Below are positions 9,943-34,330 of a DNA stretch of 64,000 bases, one piece after another. A program made the position numbers and the translations under genes. Under the pieces are notes generated by a model, which saw only the letters and a program-made list of their open reading frames with translations, was not told the origin of the DNA and did no database searches. Each line of letters starts with the position of its first letter. Position 1 is the first letter of the stretch. Source of the stretch: Bedellia somnulentella (Eukaryota > Arthropoda > Insecta > Lepidoptera > Bedelliidae); assembly GCA_963576735.1 (NCBI GenBank), contig OY755174.1, forward strand, positions 9,238,001 to 9,302,000, read 5' to 3'.

Positions 9943-10488
9943 ATGCGCGAATTTAAAGTGGTGGTGCTGGGTTCGGGCGGGGTCGGCAAGAGTGCTCTTA
10001 CCGTACAATTTGTGTCTGGATGTTTTATGGAGAAATATGACCCCACAATAGAGGATTTCTATAGAAAAGAAATTGAAGTGGACACATCACCGTGTGTACT
10101 CGAAATTTTAGATACTGCAGGAACTGAGCAATTCGCTTCTATGCGAGATCTGTATATAAAAAATGGACAAGGATTTGTTGTCGTTTACTCTTTGACAAAT
10201 CATCAAACATTTCAAGATATCAAGCTAATGAAGGAATTAATTACACGCGTCAAAGGTTCCGAACGCGTGCCGATCCTGTTGGTAGGCAACAAGTCGGATC
10301 TGGAGCACCAGAGAGAAGTTTCAGCGGCAGAAGGAGCCGCACTTGCTCAAATGTGGGGCTGTCCTTTCGTAGAAGCCTCTGCCAAAAGCCGTACCAACGT
10401 CAATGAAATGTTTGCAGAGATAGTGCGTCAAATGAACTTTAGTCCCGAAAATGATAAGAGACCATATTGTTGTTGTACAGTGCTTTAA
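9943..10488 (+). CDS. Rap2l: Rap2-type Ras-family small GTPase
   Basis: A complete 181-residue GTPase in one uninterrupted exon. All G motifs are present: P-loop GSGGVGKS (10-17), switch [13 protein letters not shown] (33-44), DTAGTEQF (57-64), NKSD (116-119) and SAK (145-147). Phe at position 39 in the effector loop is the residue that separates Rap2 from Rap1. The C-terminus is a CAAX box CTVL preceded by two more cysteines; a terminal Leu predicts geranylgeranylation, and the upstream cysteines are candidate palmitoylation sites, so the protein should act at membranes. Rap2 proteins signal through kinases of the TNIK/MAP4K4 group (family knowledge). The ATG has A at -3. The ORF shows no frameshift or stop, the length is normal for the family, and nothing suggests a decayed retrocopy. 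Confidence 0.97.
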
Positions 10489-25457: not shown

Positions 25458-25716
25458 ACTATATGTAGTTATGATTTTCTCATACTGTGTCACCTCTTAC
25501 TCCAATCGTGGGAAGAATTGAAGCAGTGGTTAATCAGACACTACAGGGCACGTTATTGAAAAGTAACAATATTGAAAATGAACGGATTACTTCCCACAAG
25601 GCATGGTTGATCTTTTACAATCGTATGATGGAGTCAAGCAAGTTGATGTATGAGTCACGGCCTCACGCGACGCTGATTGGTGCATCCGCCGCTGTCTGTC
25701 TGTGTACGGAGCGTAC

Positions 25717-25985
25717 TGTTATATCCACCCTATGTACCCTGTATTGCTGACCTATACTCCTTTCATTCCTTAACAGCAATAACCAACTGAACTCAACATA
25801 ATACTGACTCAGCTCCTTTTCCCTTACCGATTCCTATCCGCTCCGTTCAGTCCCGATCCAATCATCCTACGGTCAACATCAAATTCTAACGATATTCAAA
25901 GTCCAGTGTGTTCATGTACCTAGTTATTTAAAAATTCAATATAAGTTTTCTTTTTAAAAAGGGTCTCATTTTTTCATTTCTAACA
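25717..25985 (+). repeat. 5' LTR, 269 bp
   Basis: Begins TGTTATATCCACCC and ends TTTCATTTCTAACA. Same length and, by eye, same sequence as 33892-34160. A TATA-like AATATAAG lies near its 3' end; I did not assign U3/R/U5 borders. Confidence 0.97.
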
Positions 25986-25986
25986 T

Positions 25987-26004
25987 TGGTGGCAGCGGTG
26001 GGAT
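25987..26004 (+). other. Primer-binding site, tRNA-Leu type
   Basis: TGGTGGCAGCGGTGGGAT lies one base after the 5' LTR. It is complementary to a tRNA 3' end reading ATCCCACCGCTGCCACCA, which matches the acceptor and T-arm of animal tRNA-Leu (AAG type) as I know it, including the CCA. Confidence 0.8.
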
Positions 26005-26243
26005 CCGGCAAAATTACGGGTCCCTATTTTAATTGAATAAAACTCAAAAGTGTATCAAGTGCCTCAAATCAGTTGCAAATTTATAAAGAATAGTGTTCCT
26101 AATATTCAAGAAATTAATTCAAAGTTTTCGTGCTATATTCAATACCTTTTTCAATTTACAAAATAAGTGCAAAGTGGAGTGTAACAGTGAAATAATCCAA
26201 GTGCTCCGTTCTGGTTTCTACTCAATAAACCAGGGAATCATTT

Positions 26244-26284
26244 ATGCATCCAAGCAACGCCATGCTCTTAATCATCATCATCCT
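26244..26284 (+). CDS. Leader mini-ORF, likely first coding exon of spliced env
   Basis: The ATG at 26244 is the first after the primer-binding site. In unspliced RNA it opens a 14-codon ORF ending at TAA 26286-26288. That stop is inside a perfect splice donor GTAAGT (26285-26290). If the donor is joined to the acceptor at 31950, the 13 codons plus two bases here continue in frame into env. The leader codons are mostly Leu and Ile after a short polar start, so the fused product gains a typical hydrophobic signal-peptide core that the env ORF lacks on its own. No other ATG lies between this ORF and the gag ATG at 26640. Confidence 0.75.
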
Positions 26285-26639
26285 GTAAGTTTTTTCCAAA
26301 CTTTATCACTTTGTTCCTGCCTCTCTCAATACTACTTCGATTATCAGCGAGCTCAACGGATACGCCACGCATTCCACAGCGTCTAGGCGACAGTTCTACG
26401 AATTACACAGCGCCTTATCAGTGTACTCGTAGCTAGACGGTCAAGTACGAAAGTTTTTAAGTGTTAATTGGAATATTCATTGACTTTATTTTGTTCGTTT
26501 GTTTTTATTCTCGATTCTACAATACTATATTATTATTAATTTTTTTTATTGTTTTTCATAATATTCTGGTTTATTTCGTATCTGATATTTGATTTTTGAA
26601 TTATTTTAACTATTATTATTTAAAACAAAAAGCATAATT

Positions 26640-27674
26640 ATGATGGAAACCGATAAAAAAATGTCATCTTTAAGCCTAACTGATTTAGCTTCGACCATTG
26701 ATCCTCCACCAACCCCTAGTAAGGGTAAAACATCTGCATCATCAAAACCTATACCAACACTTGATATTGAGTTGAGCGTTTTACTCAAATTTATTAAACC
26801 TTTTGATGGGTCTCGTGAAACCCTAAATGCTTTTATAAATAATTGTAATAATGCTTATGAATTAGCATCAAACAGCCAGAAAATTATTATATTTAAATAT
26901 ATTTTAAGCCAACTGCAAGGTAAGGCCGAAGTAGCATGCTCCATTAAGGAATTCATTAATTGGGAACAATTAAAACAGTTTTTAGTGAATCAGTTTGCTG
27001 AGAAAAAGCACTATACACATTTGTTAACAGAACTCCAAGAAACGATTCAAGAAAATGGTGAAAGCGTTACTCAATTTTCCTTAAAAATAGAAACCTGTCT
27101 ATCCCAACTTTTAACCGAAGTTGTCCTTTCTTCATCAAGAAAGGGCGATATACCCGGTAAAACCACAGCAATGGAAGAGTTAGCCCTCCATCATTTCCTG
27201 ATGGGTTTATACCCCCACCTTTCTAATATAGTTCGAGCGCGATCTCCCAAAACTTTAAATGAGGCTATAAATATTGCAATATCGGAAGAGAAAATATTAC
27301 AATCTATTAAGAATAAGCGACCATCTCCTACCCCCCGAACCCGAACAAACAATACATTTTCTAATATAAGATCATCTAATAACTTCAATAATCATCGTCC
27401 TTTTGTCTCTAACCCTTCTCGCTCAAATAATTATTACAATGGAGGCAATCAAAATAACCCGGGACCGAGTAGCCAAATGACATGTAGATATTGCAAAGCA
27501 ATTGGTCATTCTATCGAAAACTGTCGCAAACGACAGTACAACAATTCTCGATTTCAAACAAGTGGGTTCCAAAATCGTCCAGGTCAAAGCCCTCCTCGCA
27601 GAACATATACAATTAATCAATGCGAGAATAACGACACTGAGGAAAGTCAAACGGACAGTAATTTAAACGAATAA
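26640..27674 (+). CDS. gag: Gag (capsid/nucleocapsid)
   Basis: 344 residues. The N-terminus is Pro/Ser/Thr-rich (to about 40). The helical capsid-like part, about 45-225, shows the retrotransposon-Gag pattern (LLKFIKPFDGSRETLNAFI, FLMGLYPHLSNIVRAR). An Asn/Arg/Ser/Pro-rich basic linker (226-280) leads to one perfect zinc knuckle CRYCKAIGHSIENC (C282, C285, H290, C295). It should assemble particles and bind genomic RNA. The first 10 codons contain two further ATGs; the 5'-most is used. The last codons carry the T TTA AAC shift site, and pol continues in the -1 frame. The gag ATG follows a leader mini-ORF, so its translation probably relies on reinitiation or ribosome bypass. Confidence 0.95.
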   Translation: MMETDKKMSSLSLTDLASTIDPPPTPSKGKTSASSKPIPTLDIELSVLLKFIKPFDGSRETLNAFINNCNNAYELASNSQKIIIFKYILSQLQGKAEVACSIKEFINWEQLKQFLVNQFAEKKHYTHLLTELQETIQENGESVTQFSLKIETCLSQLLTEVVLSSSRKGDIPGKTTAMEELALHHFLMGLYPHLSNIVRARSPKTLNEAINIAISEEKILQSIKNKRPSPTPRTRTNNTFSNIRSSNNFNNHRPFVSNPSRSNNYYNGGNQNNPGPSSQMTCRYCKAIGHSIENCRKRQYNNSRFQTSGFQNRPGQSPPRRTYTINQCENNDTEESQTDSNLNE

Positions 27675-27702
27675 GTTTTCCCGAGAAGTACCGCCCGGGA
27701 AA
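27662..27702 (+). other. -1 ribosomal frameshift signal between gag and pol
   Basis: The gag codons AAT TTA AAC GAA TAA contain the heptamer T TTA AAC (27662-27668) in the exact X XXY YYZ register for -1 slippage. The pol frame is closed by stops up to 27659-27661 and opens at 27662, overlapping gag by 13 nt. Eight bases after the heptamer, TTTCCCG (27677-27683) can pair with CGGGAAA (27696-27702) across a 12-nt loop. Heptamer, spacer and stem all fit the known -1 frameshift design. The loop could also form a pseudoknot, which I did not test. Confidence 0.88.
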
Positions 27703-27811
27703 CAAAATCCACATTGTTAAAAATGGTACCTCAAGTATAACAAAGTCCTTTAGTACATTTAATAATCCATCACTGAATCCGCTGAATCATAGTCCTCCCA
27801 AATTCGATAAA

Positions 27812-30800
27812 ATGATTGATACTAAAGGACTCATTCCCTCTGCATCTAACGATCTTATTTTACCTACTCCAACGTCAAAAAAAGACTCATCACTGAATCC
27901 ACTGAATCCTCTGAATCCACTGAATCCTCTGAATCCACTGAACCCTCTGAATCCTCAAATGCTTGATCTCTGCTCTTCTGAAAAAACTTGTGAATTCCCT
28001 TTGTCTCCATCAAAAGATGCCCTCTCACTAGAAAAACCTAGTAGGATATTCGAAATTTTAAAAAACTCTGATAAGAGGTACTTACCCCACATTATCATAC
28101 AAACTGTTGTATCAGATAGACCCCTTTCATTCCTTATAGACACTGGCTCATGTGTAAGCCTCATAAAACTCAATTCGATATCTAAACCACCCAAGCTGAA
28201 TAAAAATATAATTACTTTAAAAGGTATTGACTCCGGAGATAATGTTACTTCTACACTTGGAAATTTTAAAATGCCCATTTTTCCCAATTCCTCTGATACA
28301 CACGAGTTTCACGTTGTGGGAGATATAAGTTTATCACATGATGGCATAGTTGGTAATGATCTTCTAGATAGTTTTGAGTGTCAAATAGATTATGGTAAAA
28401 AGGTCCTAAAAATTGGAAACAATTTAATAAATTTAAATTTCTCAGAACCTCTTTATACTATACCCCCTCGATCTGAGTTTGTTATAGAATGTTCTGTTTC
28501 TAACCCTGAATTAAAGGAAGGGATTGTCTTCGATCAACACATTTCAGATCAAATCTTTGTATCGAATTCCATAGTTAAAGTTAAACCAAATAATAGAGTT
28601 AATATTACGATTGCTAATACTACAAATGAAACAATATCCATAAATTCCGATTTGAAACTTCATCTTGAACCTATTGATTATTCAGTTCTTACTAATTCCT
28701 ATGCTTTACCCACAAATGGTATTTCCAAAAGAACTAATGATGTAATTAACCTTCTAAGATTAAATCATCTTAATAATGAAGAAAGGGAATCCCTCATTGA
28801 CTTATGTTCGACTTATTCAGATATTTTCCATTTACCAAATGACAAACTCACACACACAACAGCTCTCACTCATAAAATTAGGACTACCACCGAAGTACCA
28901 ATTCATACCAAAACTTATCGATTTCCAGAGGTCCATAAAAGGGAAGTTGAGAAACAAATAAATAAAATGTTAGATGACGAAATAATAGCACCTTCCAAAT
29001 CACCTTGGTCATCACCCATATGGGTTGTACCCAAGAAATTAGATGCCTCAGGAGAAAAGAAATGGCGTGTAGTTATAGATTACAGAAAACTTAACGATAT
29101 AACTATAGGTGAAGTTTATCCAATTCCTCAGATAACTGAAATATTAGATCAACTCGGACATAGCAAATACTTCTCTACATTAGATTTAGCCTCTGGTTTT
29201 CACCAAATCCCTGTAGAAGATCCTGAAAAAACTGCTTTTTCCGTACCTCAGGGTCATTTTCAATTCAACAGAATGCCTTTTGGGCTCAAAAATGCTCCAG
29301 CCACTTTTCAACGCCTCATGAATTCTTGTCTCGCCGGTCTCCAAGGCTCTCGTTGCTTCGTATATTTGGACGATATCGTGATATATAGCCATGACTTAAC
29401 ATCCCATATAAACAATCTTTCACTTATTTTTGCTAGACTCAGAGAATTTAACCTTAAACTGCAACCGGACAAATGTGAATTTTTACATAAAGAAGTCGCA
29501 TACCTTGGTCACGTAATAAATGAAAATGGCGTCAAACCAAACCCAGAAAAAATTAAAGCAGTGGTAGAATATCCCATTCCAAAAACTCAAACAGATATAA
29601 AATCTTTCTTAGGTTTAATGTCCTATTATAGAAGATTCATCCCTGAATTTGCGAAATTTTCTAAACCACTTACTAACCTCTGCAAGAAAGGAGTCGCCTT
29701 TGAATGGAAAAATGAACAGCAGCTTAATTTTGAAAAACTTAAAGAAAAACTTGTTTCTGCTCCAGTCCTTATTTATCCCGACTTTACTAAACCTTTTCTT
29801 CTCACATGTGATGCTTCTCAGTTTGCTATTTCTGCTATATTATCCCAAGGTCCTATCGGTCAAGATCGACCTATAGCATTCGCATCTCGCACTTTAAATA
29901 AAGCAGAAATCAATTATTCAACAACGGAAAAAGAATGCTTGGCCATTATCTTTGGCACTCAACAATTCAGACCTTACCTTTTCGGTCATCGTTTTACTAT
30001 AATAACTGACCACAAGCCACTTAAATGGCTTTTCAACTGTTCAAAACCAGGCTCTCGTTTAGTTAGATGGCGCTTACAATTGGAAGAGTTTGACTATGAC
30101 ATTGAATATAAAAAAGGAAAAATTAATTGCAATGCTGATGCTCTATCGAGACACCCTGTTAATCCCATCTTAGTCGATGATCAATTAAATCTCAATCTTT
30201 CTAGTCCAAATCCCTCTAATGAAAGTTTACCTGCAACAAACAATGAATTTGTTAGCGTAAATGACTTACCGACACCAATTCCATTCACTGACTCTAGCGC
30301 TGAAAGTACAAATACCCAAACAGCAATTGATCCTCTTGTAGATATAGATTTTACTGACGACTCTTATTCTGATTTTCTCAAAAACACTAATGGCAAAAAC
30401 TTTGAAACTGATGTGACCATTATTGAACACAACAAGAGTATATTGGAAAGTGATTGTAAAAATTTAGTTATTCCCGTTTCAATTGACCTTGATGAAGCTA
30501 ATCCTTATATCGAACAAATTTTGGGAAATATCGAAAATACAGATGAAATCATAAACTGCGAAAGAACGCTATATTCATCTCTTAAAATTAAGTATCAAAA
30601 TAAAAATGTTTACCTTATATTTATTAAAGTACATCACTTTGATCAAGGCTCTTATGATGATATATATAAATCACTGAAAAACCTAAGGAATGAACTTATT
30701 CTACAACTCGAACTTTCTGACTTACGAATTGCTATCACTGACTTTAAAAATCCTTTTGACAAATATTTACCTTTGAAATTATATAACATGCTTTTATATG

Positions 30801-31909
30801 TGTTTAACAAAACCAAAATTGAAATTAATATTTATCATAACAATTTGATTTATCCCACATTAAGTGAAATCCCAAAAATCCTTAAAGAGAATCACGATAT
30901 ACCTGTCGCTGGTCATTTAGGTGCAAATAGAATGCTTAAGAGAGTCCAAGATCAATTTTACTGGAAACATATGAGAAATGATATTGAAAATTATGTAAAG
31001 AACTGTGAATCTTGCCAAACCAATAAAGCTTTACGCCGAATAAATCGTGCTCCCATGCAAATCACTTCCACTTCAACTCAGCCTTTTGAAAGAATTAGTC
31101 TTGACATAGTAGGTCCCCTTCCTGAAACCAATAAAAGTAAACTTCGCTTTATCCTTACCCTTCAAGACGACTTAACAAAATTTTCTACCGCTTACCCTAT
31201 TTCATCAACAACAGCTGAAGAAACCTCAGAATGTCTTATACACTTTATTTCATTGTTCGGTATCCCGAAAATGATCCTCACCGATCAGGGAACTAATTTT
31301 ACAGCAGATCTCTTTAAGAAAACCTGTCAATTTCTAAAAATCAAACAATTATGGTCCTCACCTTATCATCCTCAGACTCAAGGTGCTCTTGAACGATCTC
31401 ATTCAACTCTAAAAGAGTATCTTAAATCGTATATTAATGATAATCAAGACAATTGGCATATTTATATTTACACGGCAATGTTAGCTTACAATACAACTGT
31501 TCATTCTACGACTAATTATACTCCTTATGAACTTCTATATGGACATAAACCATTTATACCTAATTCCCTATTCACCCAAACTTCTGATGTCACTTACCCT
31601 GACTATGTTAAAGTGCTTCAACATCGTCTTGAATATTCTAGAAACAAAGCTATAGAAAATATTCAAAAGTCGAAAGAACTATCTAAGACCTATTATGACA
31701 GAAAGACCAGACCGGTTCAATATAAAGCAGGAGACTGTGTCTACCTTAAAAATCACCTACGTCTAAGAAAATCTTTATCACCCATTTGGAAAGGACCATA
31801 CAAAATTATAAAAATCCTTGGTAATAACACATTATCCCTTCTCATTAATAGACGACATGTAACACATCATTATGACGAAGTCAAACTAGCCCATTCTCAT
31901 TCTAACTAA
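27812..31909 (+). CDS. pol: Pol (protease, reverse transcriptase, RNase H, integrase)
   Basis: 1365 codons from the first ATG. The true product is probably a Gag-Pol fusion entered by -1 frameshift at 27668, giving about 1756 residues in all. Counting from this ATG: a seven-fold LNP tripeptide repeat (28-48), protease DTG (110-112), reverse transcriptase with TLDLASGFHQ (Asp458) and YLDD (518-521), RNase H with Asp667, Glu706, Asp733 and Asp776, a long linker of about 230 residues, and integrase with zinc site H1028, H1035, C1065, C1068. The integrase DD35E residues are Asp1098, Asp1158 and Glu1194 (35 residues between the last two). A WKGPYKI module (GPY/F type) follows near the C-terminus. 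No stops or frameshifts. It makes cDNA from genomic RNA and integrates it. Confidence 0.97.
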   Translation: MIDTKGLIPSASNDLILPTPTSKKDSSLNPLNPLNPLNPLNPLNPLNPQMLDLCSSEKTCEFPLSPSKDALSLEKPSRIFEILKNSDKRYLPHIIIQTVVSDRPLSFLIDTGSCVSLIKLNSISKPPKLNKNIITLKGIDSGDNVTSTLGNFKMPIFPNSSDTHEFHVVGDISLSHDGIVGNDLLDSFECQIDYGKKVLKIGNNLINLNFSEPLYTIPPRSEFVIECSVSNPELKEGIVFDQHISDQIFVSNSIVKVKPNNRVNITIANTTNETISINSDLKLHLEPIDYSVLTNSYALPTNGISKRTNDVINLLRLNHLNNEERESLIDLCSTYSDIFHLPNDKLTHTTALTHKIRTTTEVPIHTKTYRFPEVHKREVEKQINKMLDDEIIAPSKSPWSSPIWVVPKKLDASGEKKWRVVIDYRKLNDITIGEVYPIPQITEILDQLGHSKYFSTLDLASGFHQIPVEDPEKTAFSVPQGHFQFNRMPFGLKNAPATFQRLMNSCLAGLQGSRCFVYLDDIVIYSHDLTSHINNLSLIFARLREFNLKLQPDKCEFLHKEVAYLGHVINENGVKPNPEKIKAVVEYPIPKTQTDIKSFLGLMSYYRRFIPEFAKFSKPLTNLCKKGVAFEWKNEQQLNFEKLKEKLVSAPVLIYPDFTKPFLLTCDASQFAISAILSQGPIGQDRPIAFASRTLNKAEINYSTTEKECLAIIFGTQQFRPYLFGHRFTIITDHKPLKWLFNCSKPGSRLVRWRLQLEEFDYDIEYKKGKINCNADALSRHPVNPILVDDQLNLNLSSPNPSNESLPATNNEFVSVNDLPTPIPFTDSSAESTNTQTAIDPLVDIDFTDDSYSDFLKNTNGKNFETDVTIIEHNKSILESDCKNLVIPVSIDLDEANPYIEQILGNIENTDEIINCERTLYSSLKIKYQNKNVYLIFIKVHHFDQGSYDDIYKSLKNLRNELILQLELSDLRIAITDFKNPFDKYLPLKLYNMLLYVFNKTKIEINIYHNNLIYPTLSEIPKILKENHDIPVAGHLGANRMLKRVQDQFYWKHMRNDIENYVKNCESCQTNKALRRINRAPMQITSTSTQPFERISLDIVGPLPETNKSKLRFILTLQDDLTKFSTAYPISSTTAEETSECLIHFISLFGIPKMILTDQGTNFTADLFKKTCQFLKIKQLWSSPYHPQTQGALERSHSTLKEYLKSYINDNQDNWHIYIYTAMLAYNTTVHSTTNYTPYELLYGHKPFIPNSLFTQTSDVTYPDYVKVLQHRLEYSRNKAIENIQKSKELSKTYYDRKTRPVQYKAGDCVYLKNHLRLRKSLSPIWKGPYKIIKILGNNTLSLLINRRHVTHHYDEVKLAHSHSN

Positions 31910-31930
31910 TTTCACTCTATTAAAATTTCT

Positions 31931-31950
31931 TTCATTTAATTTTATTTCAG
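31931..31950 (+). other. Splice acceptor for env RNA
   Basis: A T-rich tract ending ATTTTATTTCAG|C, eight bases before the first env ATG and just after the pol stop. Joined to the donor at 26285 it removes gag and pol (a 5666-nt intron) and keeps the leader ORF in frame with env. Confidence 0.8.
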
Positions 31951-31957
31951 CATATCC

Positions 31958-33841
31958 ATGACTCAAGCCCTTCCAGATCCTGTCAAATACATTCATAATA
32001 GTTCCGGAATATATTTTGAACCCTTAGGTCCCATGAAGACAGTAAACGGTCATCTTAATATTATAATCTCTTCTGATATTGGATATTTACAACCCCATAT
32101 TAATGCTATTAATGAAATAATAGGTACCACTAGATTTCTTTGTAAATCATATAATGCTTTTAACGATTCTGAATGTCATAATATATTAGCTCCCCTTACT
32201 ACCAGATACCATGATATAATCCGAGACTTTGACGCAATTAATTATTTAACAAACAATAGAGATAAACGCTCAGCTTGGTTTGGTGGTGTTGGAACTGTTT
32301 TCAAACATATAATTGGAACACTTGATGAAAATGATGCTATTCGATACGATAAAGCTATATCATCCTTACAGAGAGATGAAATAAAATTAGCCTCTCTAGT
32401 TAAAGAAAATATTTTAGTTACTCAATCTTCCATAAATGATTTTAACAATACTTTGAATAAAATTAAAATAAATGAATTAAGATTAAGAAATGCTATTAAC
32501 TCTATCACGGATAATGTGAATAATGTAAGTTTAGTTTCGAATAAGTTAGTTTTAAGGACTATGTTTAATCATGTTTTTAACATTCTCGATAGCGCACTGT
32601 TATCATTATCTTTTAAAATTAATGATTTAATTAATAGTATTATTTCAAGCAAAAACAATGTGCTTTACCCTGCTATGTTGAGTCCTAAAGAATTATACTA
32701 CGAATTAGTTAATAATTACTTACATTTACCTGATTCCAAATATTTACCAATTGTTCTAGATTTAAGTAATGTTAATAAATTAATTGATGTATCTGATATA
32801 GTAAGCTACTATTATAATAATAAGATTAATTTTGTACTGAAGGTTCCACTTGTTAACTCTATAGAATATAATATGTATCATGCCATTCCTTTACCTGTAC
32901 CTCATAATTTATCAAAACCCGATTCATTTGTAACGATAATACCTACAAATAAATATATTGCCATATCAATAGATAAATCCGTATATACTGTTTATGATGA
33001 CATTCACAAAGAATGTAAATCTATAAATTTAATGTATTATATTTGTGAAGCTTCGATTATATACTCCTCTAATGATAATCCCATCTGTGAAAGTGAGATG
33101 TTATCCAAAAGTTTAACTACCATGCCTAAACAATGTAATTACAAAATACTATTTGGTGAATTAGATGTATGGCAACCTTTGATAAATAATAAATGGATAT
33201 TTGTTCAATCCGACTCTGTAAAATTGTCTATCAATTGTATAAATGAAACCTTAGATAGAAATATACAAGGTTTAGGTATACTTGAACTTTCAAGTCAATG
33301 TGAAGCCTATTGTAAGTATACTAAACTCATTCCAAAATCCTTTATAAATAAAATTTTAATTCAACGTCCTATAATTAACTTTAATTTAATTAATGAACCA
33401 TGCTGTAATATTGATAAGACGTATTTGTTAAAGAACAGTGTACCTCGTATTTCACTTGTTGCTACTAATCTTGATAAGATTCAAGACTATAATAGAAATA
33501 ATCAAAATGTAATTAAATCTTTGAATAAAATCATAAACAAACCTCATATTTTAAAATACGGGACACATTATTCTATTTTCATTTGGATCATATGTTTAAT
33601 AGTAATAATGATAATCATTTATATAATATTATGTACATTTAAATTCAATTTACCAATCTCTGTAAGACCAATCCATACAACAGCTCCTGTTCCTATCTCC
33701 AATCTAGATCCTGTTCCTGTCATTCCACACTGCTCTACTCCCATACCTACTCCTCGTCGTTCACACCTTCCTCCAGTTGATGGAGAATCAGCTTCTGATC
33801 TTCCTGACTCTAACTCACCTCGCATTAGATGCCGCTTTTAG
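31958..33841 (+). CDS. env: Env, F-type fusion glycoprotein
   Basis: 627 residues in one frame. A furin-like site RDKR (101-104) is followed by a glycine-rich hydrophobic stretch SAWFGGVGTVFKHIIGTL, the position and style of a fusion peptide as in baculovirus F and errantivirus Env proteins. A long Asn/Leu/Ile-rich, probably coiled-coil region follows. One transmembrane helix lies at about 540-561, then a proline-rich cytoplasmic tail of about 65 residues. There are several N-X-S/T sites. The ORF has no signal peptide of its own; the spliced leader at 26244-26284 would supply one. It should allow particles to enter cells, if expressed. I saw no breaks in the ORF. Confidence 0.93.
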   Translation: MTQALPDPVKYIHNSSGIYFEPLGPMKTVNGHLNIIISSDIGYLQPHINAINEIIGTTRFLCKSYNAFNDSECHNILAPLTTRYHDIIRDFDAINYLTNNRDKRSAWFGGVGTVFKHIIGTLDENDAIRYDKAISSLQRDEIKLASLVKENILVTQSSINDFNNTLNKIKINELRLRNAINSITDNVNNVSLVSNKLVLRTMFNHVFNILDSALLSLSFKINDLINSIISSKNNVLYPAMLSPKELYYELVNNYLHLPDSKYLPIVLDLSNVNKLIDVSDIVSYYYNNKINFVLKVPLVNSIEYNMYHAIPLPVPHNLSKPDSFVTIIPTNKYIAISIDKSVYTVYDDIHKECKSINLMYYICEASIIYSSNDNPICESEMLSKSLTTMPKQCNYKILFGELDVWQPLINNKWIFVQSDSVKLSINCINETLDRNIQGLGILELSSQCEAYCKYTKLIPKSFINKILIQRPIINFNLINEPCCNIDKTYLLKNSVPRISLVATNLDKIQDYNRNNQNVIKSLNKIINKPHILKYGTHYSIFIWIICLIVIMIIIYIILCTFKFNLPISVRPIHTTAPVPISNLDPVPVIPHCSTPIPTPRRSHLPPVDGESASDLPDSNSPRIRCRF

Positions 33842-33884
33842 AAACTCCGAGATGTTTCTTTTTCCTCGTAGTTTCCTCTTATCC

Positions 33885-33890
33885 GGGGGG
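33885..33890 (+). other. Polypurine tract (short G run)
   Basis: Six G residues followed by a single C directly before the 3' LTR TGTT. It is short for a polypurine tract but correctly placed for plus-strand priming. Confidence 0.6.
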
Positions 33891-33891
33891 C

Positions 33892-34160
33892 TGTTATATC
33901 CACCCTATGTACCCTGTATTGCTGACCTATACTCCTTTCATTCCTTAACAGCAATAACCAACTGAACTCAACATAATACTGACTCAGCTCCTTTTCCCTT
34001 ACCGATTCCTATCCGCTCCGTTCAGTCCCGATCCAATCATCCTACGGTCAACATCAAATTCTAACGATATTCAAAGTCCAGTGTGTTCATGTACCTAGTT
34101 ATTTAAAAATTCAATATAAGTTTTCTTTTTAAAAAGGGTCTCATTTTTTCATTTCTAACA
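33892..34160 (+). repeat. 3' LTR, 269 bp
   Basis: Matches the 5' LTR base for base as I read it, and is followed directly by the duplicated target GTAC (34161-34164). Confidence 0.97.
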
Positions 34161-34330
34161 GTACGTGTGTGGGTACTTGTTGCATACAACTTGACTTGAT
34201 GTATTTGTGATGAGAGTTTTGCCACCATTCGATGTATGTATTGTTTTAGAAGTTTGTAAATGCAGTGGTGATCCTGAATAGGGTTATGGTCATGTAACTT
34301 GTTTATTAAATGAACCACGAAAAATTTAGT

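Follow-up and report, generated by a model that had tools for sequence, protein, structure and literature searches.

A short leader reading frame as the predicted first exon of env in an errantivirus-like element of Bedellia somnulentella and in related element families

Results

An errantivirus-like element with a short reading frame in its leader

The window analysed here, a stretch of 64,000 nucleotides from the lepidopteran Bedellia somnulentella (GenBank assembly GCA_963576735.1, contig OY755174.1, positions 9,238,001 to 9,302,000 of the forward strand), contains a single long terminal repeat (LTR) element, spanning 25717-34160, which has TG...CA ends, two LTRs of the same sequence and a GTAC target duplication. 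The element carries the gene set of an errantivirus or insect endogenous retrovirus, that is, LTR-flanked gag, pol and env with an Env akin to baculovirus F (Pfam match to PF12259, E 2.2e-42), and this gene content and Env family indicate that it is errantivirus-like. Our subject is a 14-codon open reading frame in its leader (the mini-ORF), which is predicted to be the first coding exon of env. Plain coordinates throughout are positions in the window, and LTRs, genes and splice sites are on the + strand:

25713..25716, target-site duplication GTAC, 4 bases, 5' copy; the other copy is at 34161-34164 (read from the flanks)
25717..25985, +, 5' LTR, TG...CA, 269 bases, identical repeat
25986..26243, +, leader stretch up to the mini-ORF, 0 ATG
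25987..26004, +, primer-binding site, beginning one base past the LTR
26244..26288, +, mini-ORF of 14 codons ending in TAA; its bases up to 26284 are proposed as the coding part of env exon 1
26285..26290, +, predicted splice donor GTAAGT, the sole GTRAGT from primer-binding site to gag, containing the TAA
26285..26639, +, intron side of the leader, donor to gag, 0 ATG
26640..27674, +, gag, 344 amino acids, Pfam Ty3_capsid and Retrotrans_gag, both under curated cut-offs
27662..31909, +, pol frame, first ATG 27812, protease, reverse transcriptase, RNase H and integrase
31931..31950, +, pyrimidine-rich tract and predicted splice acceptor, AG at 31949-31950
31951..33841, +, env exon, whose first base would complete the split codon, ATG at 31958
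33892..34160, +, 3' LTR, same sequence as the 5' LTR

A sequence-only reading of this stretch had proposed that splicing fuses the mini-ORF to env as a signal peptide, with the donor doubling as the mini-ORF's stop codon. The anatomy that it described is present: the frame opened by the ATG at 26244 runs for 14 codons into a TAA (26286-26288) within the GTAAGT at 26285-26290, and the acceptor AG at 31949-31950 is followed, seven bases on, by the env ATG at 31958. Joining the two keeps frame, the 41 bases of exon 1 and the seven before the env ATG making 48, which is divisible by 3. The further statement that this is the only ATG before gag needs rewording: there is a single frame, and it holds two ATGs, at 26244 with T at -3 and at 26262 with G at -3, the better context. 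An additional ATG in the LTR, at 25914, would be in the RNA only if transcription starts upstream of that position.

Env was also said to lack a signal of its own, and from its own ATG it indeed shows no strong hydrophobic stretch in the first 40 residues. The best seven-residue Kyte-Doolittle mean there is 1.74, compared with 3.93 in the mini-ORF; hydrophobicity was judged by these means only, and the cut-off of 2.5 was chosen after the window peptide was known. That the donor doubles as a stop codon is true, and it is an automatic outcome, since in phase 2 the donor sequence GTRAGT is invariably read as NNG-TRA. We therefore rejected the idea that the overlap is noteworthy by itself. In the run that follows the donor (26291-26296), the window copy has one T extra relative to 12 close copies (L002-L013).

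The same arrangement recurs in ten element families

We searched the genome (549 Mb, 486 contigs) with a piece of Env. It is rich in env-bearing elements: 112 of 852 candidates were scored matches, with identities from 100% down to 36% and many frames of >600 amino acids. Families were chosen by eye from the scored matches, more distant ones being left out, and the env starts of 20 representatives gave, again by eye, nine families beyond the window's own (B, B2, C, D, E, F, G, H and K). Each is represented by one leader, from a copy whose env start was also read. Primer-binding sites were assigned by motif, with weak matches in B and E, and gag was taken to begin at the first Met of its long frame, a tblastn gag match being present in B, D, F and H and the start in K being deduced from a damaged copy. 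Over about 80 residues, the Env starts of the ten families are 22-48% identical pairwise.

Aligning the leaders of related elements had been suggested as a check, and the frame and the donor/stop overlap are kept in all ten families. Exactly one GTRAGT lies between primer-binding site and gag in 10/10, so that no choice of donor was possible. A frame of 10-21 codons that begins with ATG runs open into this donor with two bases left over (phase 2), and the env acceptor requires one base to fill the codon, each in 10/10 families; the stop within the donor is TAA in six and TGA in four. Every mini-peptide contains a hydrophobic stretch (best seven-residue mean 1.80-3.93; the hydropathy cut-off of 1.6 was fixed after the peptides had been inspected), although the sequences diverge, and in 8/9 families its frame is more hydrophobic than both other frames (stops omitted, K excluded). 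The two bases preceding the donor are CT in 7/10 families. CTN encodes leucine whatever the next base, so the split codon would remain hydrophobic; the usual exon-side AG of a donor would be absent in these families.

This recurrence, together with the anatomy of the window element, makes it very probable that the mini-ORF is env exon 1 and provides, by splicing, both the start codon and the signal peptide of Env.

The leaders are depleted of other ATGs

The mini-ORF had also been suggested to tune Gag translation on unspliced RNA, and the ATG content of the leaders bears on this. Outside the mini-ORF the ten leaders contain 19 ATGs, with 76.5 expected. From primer-binding site to mini-ORF there are 6 (45.8 expected) and from donor to gag 13 (30.7 expected), and for neither part was any of 3000 shuffles as low. 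As a control, CAT is not depleted (48 versus 53.3 before the mini-ORF, 43 versus 48.3 from donor to gag). The window element has none in either part of the leader.

Such depletion fits ribosomes that scan from the cap past a near-sole upstream open reading frame (uORF) to gag, and given it, a role of the mini-ORF in tuning Gag translation is plausible. In 8/10 families a purine occupies position -3 of the first mini-ORF ATG; in the window family and B it is the second in-frame ATG that has one. With a purine so common at this position the start would not be generally weak, which favours reinitiation or partial leakiness as the way past it.

The alternative that survives best accepts env exon 1 as proposed and has the mini-ORF merely tolerated on unspliced RNA, with Gag made from an internal ribosome entry site (IRES). 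Two IRESs are stated for gypsy in the part of PMC4276936 available to us, and three of the ten families retain several ATGs between donor and gag (3 in B2, 5 in E, 3 in K). However, depletion on both sides of the mini-ORF is not needed by ribosomes that do not scan. We lean slightly towards scanning through the leader to gag and regard internal entry as the less likely alternative.

Conservation among copies within families

The window family is young, with all 17 matches over the pol/env border 97-100% identical; among its 22 leader matches, 15 are at 97% or more and the lowest is at 74%. Twenty-one rows were compared at the mini-ORF, corresponding to 20 distinct copies because L019 and L020 show one stretch, and mini-ORF and donor are kept in 18 of the 20. 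The remaining two are L017, where an insertion within the mini-ORF removes the donor, and L021, where start and donor are both lost. The copies of this family are too similar to reveal selection.

The insertion in L017 (G000:C19:8445769-8446281) resembles, by eye, the mini-ORF end and donor copied in inverted orientation, and the matching env piece of this copy (L024) is 100% identical to the window env. In another copy, matched by L019 and L020 (G000:C7:13939051-13940637), about 1.1 kb interrupts the leader; both matches include query bases 281-288, an 8-base overlap as expected from an insertion with an 8-base target duplication.

In family H, for which 20 of 38 matches were sampled, the more diverged ones, frame and donor are kept in 21/21 copies compared. 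Letters other than the commonest make up 2.0% of the exon piece, 3.4% of the intron side and 1.0% of the upstream part, and the donor is invariant, with 0. Of the 15 minority letters in the exon piece, 2, 6 and 7 lie at codon positions 1, 2 and 3, respectively, too few to show selection.

The source of the Env start

We next weigh whether Env needs the upstream exon. The env exons of 7/10 families have no Met ahead of the conserved Env start, which makes the upstream exon the simplest source of a start. The first in-frame ATG comes 70-91 bases into the env exon in B, C and E, and none was found in F, H and K within the piece read.

Several observations weigh against env exon 1 as we propose it. 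The window family, D and G have an early Met in the env exon, and unspliced RNA of B2 would carry an in-frame ATG 17 bases ahead of the acceptor, so that a spliced start is not forced in these four. B, C and F also have a phase-0 ATG frame open into the donor, and in family E an alternative frame is slightly more hydrophobic than that of the mini-peptide (2.53 versus 2.46). No spliced retrocopy was found among the 17 window-family matches over the pol/env border, all of which cross the acceptor into pol. Finally, the families share common ancestry, and the ten are not ten independent cases.

An early Met is what would be expected if the mini-ORF were purely a regulatory uORF and Env began at its own ATG (31958 in the window, seven bases past the acceptor) or at another junction. 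We reject this as very improbable: seven of the ten families lack such a Met ahead of the conserved Env start, the window Env read from 31958 has no clear hydrophobic signal, and the peptides diverge while hydrophobicity and phase persist, as a signal peptide, and not a uORF, requires.

That leader frame and GTAAGT fell into phase with env by accident is rejected as negligible, for although a single case is weak evidence, 4.4% of shuffled leaders having a phase-2 ATG frame open at GTRAGT, the arrangement is repeated in 10/10 families. These figures come from 20,000 dinucleotide shuffles of the window leader, in which GTRAGT was present in 22.6%, the phase-2 frame was opened by the first ATG in 0.67%, and a first ATG was combined with a hydrophobic end in 0.02%; the criteria were picked with the window case already in view.

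Other features of the element and the window

Env has an RDKR site at 32258-32269 and a hydrophobic C-terminal stretch at about 33572-33631. Among 15 Env relatives with organism names, 14 are moths or butterflies, going by genera that we take to be lepidopteran, and one is a termite, in keeping with a lepidopteran host. Scans of viral contigs using Env alone or an alignment of 20 Envs gave no confirmed relative.

At 27662-27674, about 13 bases are shared between the frames of gag and pol; by frame arithmetic pol is in the -1 frame, and the overlap likely contains a -1 frameshift site. The primer-binding site at 25987..26004 appears complementary to the 3' end of a tRNA-Leu. In families F, G and H (L096, L097 and L098) this site differs identically from that of the window family, B2, C, D and K, and we take it to correspond possibly to another tRNA-Leu isoacceptor.

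Elsewhere in the window, an uninterrupted intronless ORF of 181 amino acids at 9943-10488 encodes a full Ras-family domain and is perhaps a retrocopy or an intronless gene.

Discussion

In the mechanism that we propose, Env would be made from a singly spliced RNA of the errantivirus with an intron in phase 2. Exon 1 would end within the short frame that lies between primer-binding site and gag; from this frame would come the start codon and the greater part of the signal peptide's hydrophobic core, and the cleavage region and mature Env would be encoded by the env exon. If the RNA is left unspliced, a ribosome that initiates at this AUG would translate 14 codons and terminate within the donor; leaky scanning or reinitiation would bring ribosomes to gag across a leader with almost no other AUG.

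Splice fusion of a leader peptide to env is thus backed by the same anatomy and phase in ten families, and as a mechanism it is not new. Senti et al. (EMBO J 2025, PMC12992720) mapped experimentally, in Drosophila, env RNAs spliced from a short peptide-encoding exon ahead of gag, and signal peptides were predicted on the spliced Envs. According to the portions of that paper at hand, the ZAM and Beagle subclades resemble the elements described here in splicing a pre-gag peptide exon to env; their junctions were mapped by experiment, whereas ours are predicted from sequence in 10/10 families. The same main-text portions make no mention of junction phase, donor/stop overlap or leader ATG content. 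In gypsy, the env start codon is composed of AT contributed by the 5' side and a G contributed by env (PMC2585583, in part). The gypsy/springer subclade therefore has, like the families here, a splicing-dependent env start with a phase-2 split, but going by the available parts of PMC2585583 and PMC12992720, its 5' exon gives just two codon bases and no signal-peptide residues, unlike here.

A splice-built start and signal peptide is accordingly already known from Drosophila, and the window element and the nine other families are further cases. In Rous sarcoma virus, too, Env begins with a start codon and residues encoded by a 5' exon that also serves another frame; the difference is that gag itself begins in this exon, which is no independent frame ahead of gag, and that the Env is unrelated.

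What may be new is that other ATGs are depleted both before and after the mini-ORF. A single predicted phase shared by ten families, combined with leaders poor in AUG, goes beyond the literature that we examined: among the titles and abstract openings listed from open-licence PMC literature, none concerned a uORF or a donor/stop overlap in such elements. The point of leader/env splicing does not occur in the portions of PMC6085415 available to us, and those of PMC13172572, PMC10541861, PMC8096092 and PMC5803895 contain little or nothing on it.

Gene callers can overlook a first env exon of this kind. Among public Env homologues, the conserved start lies within the first 90 residues in 39/86, and by a simple cut-off a hydrophobic stretch precedes it in just 7 of the 39, so that the start and signal peptide are probably missing from many of the insect Envs on record. 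Two public Env models, P0007 and P0060, have long hydrophobic N-termini, which may be the translated polypyrimidine tract upstream of the acceptor and not a true signal peptide.

The comparison of ten families raises a testable question: how one leader AUG can be efficient for Env and yet let ribosomes pass to Gag. From the pattern of one phase and an AUG-poor leader comes the testable idea of joint control of Gag and Env from a single AUG. More tentatively, and with the odds in our view somewhat against it, one AUG may serve both products and set their ratio across errantiviruses: on spliced RNA it would start Env together with the signal peptide, and on unspliced RNA the donor would end the frame and free ribosomes toward gag across the AUG-poor leader. 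Phase 2 would be kept because no other phase makes a GTRAGT donor double as a stop, and gypsy would be the limiting case: its AT|G start spans the exon/intron border and would read start-stop if the donor is GTRAGT. If this is true, splicing efficiency and start-codon leakiness would be under joint selection.
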